DNA of 10,116 nucleotides from assembly GCA_019894655.1 (NCBI GenBank), contig JAGXNZ010000213.1, positions 1 to 10,116 on the forward strand, read 5' to 3'. The notes below the pieces were generated by a model. That model worked only from the letters and a program-made list of their open reading frames with translations, did no database searches and had not been told where the DNA came from. Below, piece after piece: positions 8,433 to 10,114 of this stretch. Each line of letters begins with the position of its first letter. The stretch's first letter is position 1. Source of the stretch: Promethearchaeota archaeon (GTDB lineage: Archaea; Asgardarchaeota; Lokiarchaeia; Sigynarchaeales; SOKP01). The translations under genes were made by a program, and so were the position numbers.

Positions 8433-9563
8433 ATGATGGCTGGAACTTACGAGAACTTCATGATCTTTGGATTAGAAAGTACCGGTGAAAAAGTAAAATT
8501 AGATGTATCGGAAGACGAATTTTGCGCCAATAACGGTCAAAATGTTCTAGATCCTCACCAAGTATTAGTGATTGTTAAGGAGGATTTAAGGAGAATTTAC
8601 ATCTGGAAAGGCGTAAATTCACACGTTAGAAAAAAATTTATTGCCTCTCACATCGCTGCGGAATTACAAAGCGATTTAGTTGTTAACGGACATTTTCATC
8701 GATGTAAGATTATATCCGTAGATCAAGGAGATGAACCTCTCGAATTTATGAGAGCTTTTAGTTTGAAAGCAACTATAGTTCCTGAAGTCTTAGAAAGGGA
8801 CTCTGTAGAGTTCAAACAATTGCACGCGTCTTCTCTCAAAGGTTCTGCAGAAACTAACGATAAAAAGGTCTACGGATGGAAAGGACCACCTCCTAAACGG
8901 ACGGGTAAAGGTAAGTCCCATGTAATTGCAAGAAAGGTAGACAGGGACATTGAACTTAAACCTAAACAATCAACAAAACCTCCTAAGTTAGACAATAAAA
9001 ATGTGATTAAGAAAATCGTGACTAATAAAGTTCCCGCCAATTTTAAAAGGCAAAATTTGATTTTAGGGAATTTTCAGATTTTTGGAAATGCGATTAAAAA
9101 AGCTAAAATATTCGGCGAAGAAGTAGAAGAAGTCGAATGGGAACCAGTGAACTCGCTACCAGTAGGAATAATTGAACTAACTGATCGCACTCTAAGAATT
9201 TATGTCGATGAGACCTCTAAGACTATTGAAGGAATAGAAATTCTCCAAAAACTCGAAGCGCCTAAAGTTGTAGAACAGATGGTTGAAAAGGGAGAAGAGG
9301 TAGACTATAAAACTTGGACCGTTAAACAGCTAAGAATTTATTGTCAAGAGAACAATATAAAAGTGCCCGTACCTTACAGAAAAGCACAAATTATAAGCCT
9401 CATTAAAAAAGGTCCCTCCCAAGAATCTATTAAACCAGATTCAAATTATAAGACTTGGACAGTAAAGCAACTGAAAGAATATTGTAAAAAAAACGATATC
9501 AAAGTGCTTTCTACATATAGAAAAGCAGACATACTAAAATTTGTGGAAGAACATCAAAAATAG
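8433..9563 (+). CDS. Gelsolin-like domain protein with two C-terminal SAP-like motifs
   Basis: This 376-residue soluble protein has several modules. Residues about 36-110 match a gelsolin-type domain: the strand VLVIVKEDLRRIYIWKG (44-60), a basic turn, a long helix KKFIASHIAAELQS (67-80) and a final strand CKIISVDQGDEPLEFMRAF (91-109). Gelsolin domains bind, cap or sever actin, often under calcium control. Residues 144-200 form a Lys/Pro-rich, probably disordered linker. Residues 205-275 form an unrecognised module rich in strand-forming residues, including LPVGIIELTDRTLRIYVDE. The C terminus carries two SAP-like helix-extended-helix motifs at 294-326 and 341-373, both with TWTVKQL and YRKA and 47 residues apart; SAP motifs usually bind DNA or RNA. 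The fusion suggests a link between actin-like filaments and nucleic acid, but this is inference. Start 8433 or 8436. The next gene is convergent. Confidence 0.8.
   Translation: MMAGTYENFMIFGLESTGEKVKLDVSEDEFCANNGQNVLDPHQVLVIVKEDLRRIYIWKGVNSHVRKKFIASHIAAELQSDLVVNGHFHRCKIISVDQGDEPLEFMRAFSLKATIVPEVLERDSVEFKQLHASSLKGSAETNDKKVYGWKGPPPKRTGKGKSHVIARKVDRDIELKPKQSTKPPKLDNKNVIKKIVTNKVPANFKRQNLILGNFQIFGNAIKKAKIFGEEVEEVEWEPVNSLPVGIIELTDRTLRIYVDETSKTIEGIEILQKLEAPKVVEQMVEKGEEVDYKTWTVKQLRIYCQENNIKVPVPYRKAQIISLIKKGPSQESIKPDSNYKTWTVKQLKEYCKKNDIKVLSTYRKADILKFVEEHQK
9312..9551 (+). repeat. Internal duplication encoding two SAP-like motifs
   Basis: The segments at 9312-9410 and 9453-9551 encode the same helix-extended-helix pattern with a 141-nt period. 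Both read TWTVKQL, then Y-C four residues later, IKV, and YRKA followed by hydrophobic residues. The DNA has diverged at many third positions, so the duplication is not recent. Confidence 0.75.
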
Positions 9564-9598: not shown

Positions 9599-10114
9599 CT
9601 AATCCTGTGAAGCATAGAATATCTCGAAACTATCTTCTAATTGATCAATGTATAACTTTCTTTTACCGGGTATAACTTTTTTTGTAAGTAATTTTGCCTT
9701 ACTGTAGCAGGTGGATGCTTCTTCGCGCATTCCTAAGTGCTTATAGGACTTGGCTAATTTTAGAAAGGTATGAAATGCGAACCAGCCTCTTGGGTTAGCT
9801 TCTAAAGCTTGAGTAAATTTCTCGATTGCTTTTTCATACTTTTGAGAGTTCATTAATACTTCACCATATGTATCATAAAGGTTTGCGTCGGAAGGATCGA
9901 GTTTGATTGCTTTTTCAATTGCATCAACTGCTTCACTATATCTTCCAATTTTACTCAATGAGATGGATTTATTGTTTAACAAGCCAGATGAGTCCGGATA
10001 TAATTCTAAGGCTATGTCAAGAGTCTTCACCACTTCTAAATCCTTACCCATCGTGGAATAAGTAAAACTTTTAATTTTGTACAGCGATTTACGCTCATTT
10101 GGATATGATTTCAT
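9599..10114 (-). CDS. TPR-repeat protein, 5' end possibly outside the window
   Basis: The visible 171 residues consist of tetratricopeptide repeats: about 8-41, 42-75, 76-109 and a last one at about 110-145, then a C-terminal helix. The repeat signature is clear in GRYSEAVDAIEKAIKLDP (57-74) and QKYEKAIEKFTQALEANP (91-108), with the expected small and aromatic positions. TPR arrays are protein-docking scaffolds; no catalytic domain is seen. The ATG at 10114 lies two bases from the window edge and is followed directly by repeat sequence, so it may be an internal Met of a longer gene. It converges on the gelsolin-SAP gene with a 35-bp gap. The partner is unknown. Confidence 0.8.
   Translation of the reverse strand: MKSYPNERKSLYKIKSFTYSTMGKDLEVVKTLDIALELYPDSSGLLNNKSISLSKIGRYSEAVDAIEKAIKLDPSDANLYDTYGEVLMNSQKYEKAIEKFTQALEANPRGWFAFHTFLKLAKSYKHLGMREEASTCYSKAKLLTKKVIPGKRKLYIDQLEDSFEIFYASQD

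Follow-up and report, generated by a model that had tools for sequence, protein, structure and literature searches.

How does a protein come to carry, in one chain, a domain of the actin-binding gelsolin type and motifs of the kind that touch nucleic acid? Asgard archaea have regulated actin, and the excerpts of the literature covered by our searches hold nothing on how that actin meets the chromosome. We analyzed a 10,116-nucleotide stretch of a Lokiarchaeial contig (hereafter, the window), in which a gene for a 376-amino-acid (aa) protein had been described in an earlier note as a fusion of a gelsolin-type domain and tandem SAP-like motifs, possibly tethering filaments to chromosome or RNA.

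A protein search returned 536 database proteins that match the 376-aa protein at E ≤ 0.001, and for this reason the open reading frame is no chance frame. The best 120 of these 536 homologs are 59–99% identical to it and cover 89–100% of its length. Ten loci from metagenome-assembled genomes labeled Lokiarchaeota or Lokiarchaeia code for the protein, and one protein among the 120 matches listed, of the same architecture, bears the label Hermodarchaeota (P0104). In a genome scan, 73 of 227 genomes of the same phylum contain a match at E ≤ 1e-20; of these 73, 11 have one over the full length of the protein, that of genome G001 running across a stop codon. At locus L001 (L001:5001-6131) we observed one stop codon within the gelsolin domain of the homolog frame, either a sequence error or a real loss, so that the called open reading frame begins later (333 aa). 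The 376-aa protein has no match in NCBIfam, and Pfam finds no domain in it beyond gelsolin and SAP-type matches (Table 1).

Table 1. Features of the 376-aa protein and their coordinates in the window
Feature	Position	Strand	Basis
Whole gene, GEL-MID-SAP-SAP, 376 aa	8433..9563	+	Open reading frame; 536 homologs; 10 loci
Gelsolin-type domain (GEL), residues 5-118	8445..8786	+	Limits from our own profile; PDB profile matches; ProGel fold match
W58-K59-G60, WxG gelsolin signature	8604..8612	+	W58 and G60 invariant in 149/149 rows
Linker modeled with low confidence (residues 119-189; net charge +9)	8787..8999	+	pLDDT <50 at 133-183
Middle domain (MID), residues 190-280	9000..9272	+	Own profile; helix and strands in model
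SAP/HeH motif 1, residues 288-330	9294..9422	+	Pfam HeH at 294-325; own profile; helices 297-306 and 317-326
SAP/HeH motif 2, residues 335-376	9435..9560	+	Best Pfam stretches at 338-368; helices 344-353 and 364-375

Of 11 stretches, 10 have an MFS gene upstream (at L010 a transposase gene stands between, and L007 is too short), and a TPR gene follows directly downstream in 10 of 11 (at L008 a transporter gene intervenes). In the window, the end of the sequence truncates this TPR protein to a fragment on the minus strand (9599-10114); the counterpart at L002 is 988 aa long and matches winged-helix and TPR families. The neighbors of the 376-aa gene include no actin or DNA gene. As the adjoining genes run divergently or convergently and give no hint of a common pathway, we dropped the neighborhood as a guide to function and left it out of the mechanism proposed below.

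Does the N-terminal part adopt a gelsolin fold? The single sequence falls short of the Pfam gelsolin family (PF00626, residues 39-106, 17.1 bits, E 0.005, under the cut-off of 21), and a precomputed domain column lists this family in 7 of the best 120 of the 536 homologs. A profile of 149 family members, however, matched Asgard gelsolins of known structure in the PDB, namely 7c2f (E 6e-7), 7c2h (5e-6), 7whf (8e-4), 7c2g (2e-3), and 7whg (3e-3). AlphaFold2 with the wider 149-row alignment gave a model of mean pLDDT 74.6; a first run with 50 close homologs (mean 55.7) was kept out of the fold searches. Over residues 11-110, pLDDT means per ten residues lie at 82–91 except for one block at 65, and the model matches the Thorarchaeota protein ProGel along 88 of the 88 residues of its chain. 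Profile and predicted model alike give the fold of the ProGel-like superfamily, and the model is gelsolin-like across residues 36-110, where the earlier note had located the fold; its assignment of an N-terminal gelsolin-like domain holds. Given the PDB profile matches and the fold match, we dropped the idea of a chance gelsolin call. The pTM of 0.35 led us to make no claim on the relative placement of domains, and because almost every row displayed by Foldseek and VIA is a gelsolin domain, these searches barely probed the folds of MID and the SAP motifs. Pfam and our own profiles both find a single gelsolin match, rather than two or more. Within the family, GEL is the most conserved part, with 33 of 109 columns at ≥90% versus 10 of 89 in MID (149 rows). 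The start of its helix may resemble the actin-binding helix of cofilin. Excerpts of one report name the WxG motif as a gelsolin signature (PMC9433394).

Genomic context gives a second line of evidence, from a paralogue. Actin-family genes occur in 15 of 15 genomes, all of them picked for holding family members. A divergent GEL-MID paralogue is encoded in 8 of the 11 fetched stretches, and in 7 of these 8 it stands in one array with a divergent actin-related gene; at L136 the remaining array falls outside the stretch, and at L139 the contig end cuts the paralogue. The six complete copies of the paralogue in the array measure 279–287 aa. Its array partners, with domains named by Pfam from L131 and L137, are a roadblock/LC7 protein, a VWA-domain protein, a protein with weak AbrB/MazE and ACT matches, a protein of 237–248 aa, and the divergent actin-related protein. 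This array, which is that of the paralogue and not of the 376-aa gene, speaks for GEL-MID proteins acting around filaments of the actin type. Kinship in fold and profile with gelsolins that were crystallised with actin and the gene neighborhood of this one paralogue together suggest that GEL binds actin. As further observations on the array (stretches L131, L132, L133, L134, L135, L139, and L140, e.g., L131:2034-10501), it also includes a large protein, with a CHAT match in L137, and the VWA-domain protein has a proline-rich part.

The same domain could instead have lost actin binding and act as a scaffold or bind some other partner, such as an actin-related protein. We consider this distinctly unlikely, although several features fit it: the subthreshold PF00626 score, the divergent actin-related gene in the array, and the residues Q43 and K67, which occupy positions of acidic ligands in calcium-regulated gelsolins. 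K67 sits where the type II calcium ligand of the long helix belongs; in the alignment the acidic ligand is absent there, with lysine in 143 of 149 rows, whereas 2DGel3 has glutamate. A further fitting feature is the surrounding basic stretch, R66-K67-[KR]68, which is very conserved across the 149 rows. Yet ProGel, which was crystallised with actin, likewise has lysine at the K67 position in the alignment, and it is GEL that the family has conserved most. Both points argue against a loss of actin binding.

Between GEL and the SAP motifs lies a region that the earlier account of a two-part fusion had passed over. Both of its domain assignments stand, but the protein is built from domains of three kinds and is one member of a larger family. 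The third kind, MID, is a conserved block for which we cut our own profiles from the alignment; its model, with pLDDT 84–88, comprises a helix and five strands. Pfam finds nothing in the MID region of the 376-aa protein or of ten relatives scanned, which include two SAP proteins without MID, and a profile search of MID against the PDB gave no significant match, only E 0.23 and 1.1. The linker that precedes MID carries, in the SAP-SAP class, a W-x-G-P-P-P motif (residues 142-156, window 8856-8900), and a W.[GA]..P-type pattern recurs in 124 of 131 rows; the motif is a possible proline-motif ligand.

SAP, HeH, Ish1, and Rho_N are families of motifs that can contact DNA, RNA, or proteins, and all four score above their Pfam cut-offs in the 376-aa protein: SAP with 30.4 bits (cut-off 23.9), Ish1 with 34.3 (26.6), HeH with 30.1 (28.9), and Rho_N with 29.7 (24.9). 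The best stretches of SAP, Ish1, and Rho_N fall on the second motif and that of HeH on the first, and the two motifs share 20 of 36 residues. Both are modeled as helix-extended-helix, with non-helical stretches parting the helices in the predicted model. The earlier proposal of two C-terminal SAP-like motifs is thereby borne out, including over residues 294-373, where it had called for such helix pairs. At least one of the four families is present in 120 of 120 homologs (precomputed column; best 120 of 536). With two copies, curated cut-offs passed, and presence in the 120 matches listed, we dropped the notion of chance SAP calls.

What might these motifs hold? Each carries a net charge of +4 in the 376-aa protein, and the class medians are +3 and +5 (121 SAP-SAP rows, the 376-aa protein included). 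Against the PDB, the best match of the SAP profile, at E 7e-4, was to an HeH protein of a prophage; no DNA-bound SAP domain matched significantly, that of THO1 reaching only 0.29; the sequence is therefore no direct proof of DNA binding. The types of module nonetheless suggest DNA as the ligand. An improbable alternative is that the motifs bind RNA or another protein and bring GEL to a ribonucleoprotein or protein complex. The equal match to all four Pfam families would suit it, as would the single-SAP class, whose members have a median net charge of 0 (range −5 to 5; 86 proteins) and are not basic on average, and so would the presence of SAP kin at the end of a GIFT/IFT52-like protein, which is no obvious DNA protein. 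Against it, H1-like tails and a helix-hairpin-helix (HhH) domain in relatives, together with SAP kin in Topo VI B, point more to DNA than to protein.

In some relatives, our computations show, the position of the SAP motifs is taken by different modules whose types are those of nucleic-acid binders. In L073, which the tree places among SAP proteins, an HhH domain occupies the SAP position (PF14520, E 8.8e-5, 23.4 bits, cut-off 27). Lysine- and arginine-rich repeats end other members, for example P0212, and look to us like histone H1 tails. We defined these repeats as at least 4 K/R-rich units that alternate with residues from the set A, P, S, T, V, and I. Of 435 rows, in which some proteins are counted twice, as locus and as protein, 15 have them at the C terminus. 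They appear in 13 of 138 GEL-MID rows, and most GEL-MID proteins without SAP lack them. Four members, P0198, P0202, P0207, and P0212, are 50–57% identical to the GEL-MID-SAP protein L028. Close kin of the SAP motif are also found towards the C terminus of Topo VI B in Lokiarchaeial genomes (L117:436-3774:- and L127:1067-4420:-). These proteins, identified by Pfam match in L117 only, are about 1115 aa long, with the SAP/HeH-like motif near residue 950-980. The GIFT/IFT52-like proteins (L121, L123, L129, and L130; Pfam match in L121 only) measure 410–424 aa and have a SAP/HeH-like motif at the end. Taken together, the exchangeable HhH and H1-like modules and the SAP kin in Topo VI B and GIFT/IFT52-like proteins would favor a nucleic acid target.

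Among the 330 proteins listed by three protein searches, at least 120 are GEL-MID-SAP-SAP, at least 97 GEL-MID, and at least 86 GEL-MID-SAP, with at least 25 GEL-MID-MID, one MID-SAP, and one GEL; these counts mirror the choice of the three queries. A GEL-MID paralogue without SAP accompanies the SAP-SAP form in 10 of the 11 genomes that have it (modules assigned by our own profiles for nine of the ten), G005, one of the ten, holding it only in pieces. In the cultured MK-D1 and L. ossiferum, the same profiles detect no SAP in the GEL-MID proteins P0261 and P0250, respectively. We built a quick tree, with many weak forks, of 88 representatives thinned from 302 rows, after removing those SAP-SAP proteins that came from the protein searches and any member that lacks GEL or MID. 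The three SAP-SAP rows remaining in it form one branch (SH-aLRT 97) inside an 18-row set split off at SH-aLRT 100, of which 16 rows carry SAP and another carries HhH; the remaining row, whose branch is very long, has neither. H1-type labels are scattered over the tree (14 rows, 14 changes).

Two further features emerged from the family comparison. A C-terminal R-x-L-P-x-I-P motif, which presumably resembles a class I SH3 ligand, lies in the last 30 residues of 173 of 208 GEL-MID, GEL-MID-MID, and GEL-MID-SAP proteins (e.g., P0121, P0203, and P0204). Shuffled tails would be expected to give 0.62 of 208, a stricter pattern is observed in 146 of 208, and the SAP-SAP class has the motif in 0 of 121. 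Separately, twelve further single-gelsolin proteins (L078-L080, L083-L086, L088, L089, L093, L095, and L096) have a C-terminal part that is not MID by our profile; in those of the L086 kind it appears PH-like by eye.

Based on these findings, our leading explanation, which we hold tentatively and at somewhat under an even chance, is that the 376-aa protein is a Lokiarchaeial single-domain gelsolin linking actin to the chromosome. Its ProGel-like N-terminal domain would bind actin without calcium, and its two C-terminal SAP/HeH motifs would bind nucleic acid, most likely chromosomal DNA. The basic, flexible linker may allow both ends to act independently, and with actin and nucleic acid held at opposite ends, the protein would tether filaments to the chromosome. 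We infer this joining of actin and DNA in the cell from the parts. Several observations weigh against it: the subthreshold PF00626 score, the non-basic motifs of the single-SAP class, the lack of a significant match to DNA-bound SAP structures, gene neighbors that include neither actin nor DNA genes, the SAP-less GEL-MID proteins of MK-D1 and L. ossiferum, and the minority share of H1-like repeats among SAP-less members. A wider form of the idea, that the family comprises dedicated Asgard actin-chromosome linkers in which a gelsolin domain is combined with exchangeable SAP, SAP-SAP, HhH, or H1-like modules, seems to us rather unlikely.

The same parts could also build a gene regulator in which GEL reads the actin monomer pool and controls the action of the SAP motifs on DNA. 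In animals, MRTF follows this logic, with an actin-binding part and a SAP domain in one protein: its RPEL part binds monomeric actin and its SAP domain sets promoter choice, according to the available excerpts of one account (PMC5415767). The nearest fold to GEL, that of ProGel, is moreover a single gelsolin domain solved with actin. Nevertheless, Pfam revealed no activation domain or known transcription partner in the 376-aa protein, and in an archaeal cell a switch of this type would have no nuclear barrier to work with. We regard an actin sensor of this kind as unlikely and put the tether first, while recognizing that our evidence cannot separate the two.

A conserved protein that combines gelsolin with a nucleic-acid-binding type of module makes the actin-chromosome question directly testable with soluble proteins produced in E. 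coli, and because family members differ in their C-terminal modules, natural variants are at hand for comparison. If the linker family is real, a dynamic actin cytoskeleton would have been joined to the genome without a nucleus, predating eukaryotes.

In the open-licence literature we found no publication on a gelsolin-SAP protein of Asgard archaea. Going by title and abstract, publications that pair gelsolin with the SAP domain concern muscle in animals, hair cells, and gene regulation by mechanical cues, and what pairs Asgard archaea with the SAP domain concerns amoebal adhesion. In the parts of the sources available, a divergent gelsolin-like Asgard cluster is noted (PMC6393860), eight gelsolin-like proteins are counted in L. 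ossiferum (PMC9834061), and Asgard gelsolins are mentioned without link to DNA (PMC12993045).

Among characterized proteins, the solved chain of ProGel (7c2f) spans only 88–94 residues and has neither MID nor SAP. The Asgard 2DGel proteins (7c2g, 7c2h, 7whf, and 7whg) contain gelsolin domains akin to GEL, but unlike the 376-aa protein they have two such domains and calcium sites. The 1DGelX class, reportedly defined in a PNAS 2020 paper, would by its name consist of one gelsolin domain plus something else, and our profiles find a single gelsolin domain in the 376-aa protein. The GEL-MID proteins P0261 of MK-D1 and P0250 of L. ossiferum plausibly belong to this class. Excerpts of PMC9433394 credit MK-D1 with two 1DGelX proteins and GC14_75 with three, and describe C-terminal extensions of some 2DGel proteins as a Zn-binding domain or charged tails, not SAP. 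A parallel in overall design, as far as the excerpts describe it, is the MRTF/myocardin family of animals, which couples an actin-binding part with a SAP domain within a single chain, as the 376-aa protein would. MRTF binds actin through RPEL motifs, whereas the 376 residues of the Lokiarchaeial protein include no RPxxxEL and carry a gelsolin domain instead, making it an analogue of this family and not a member.
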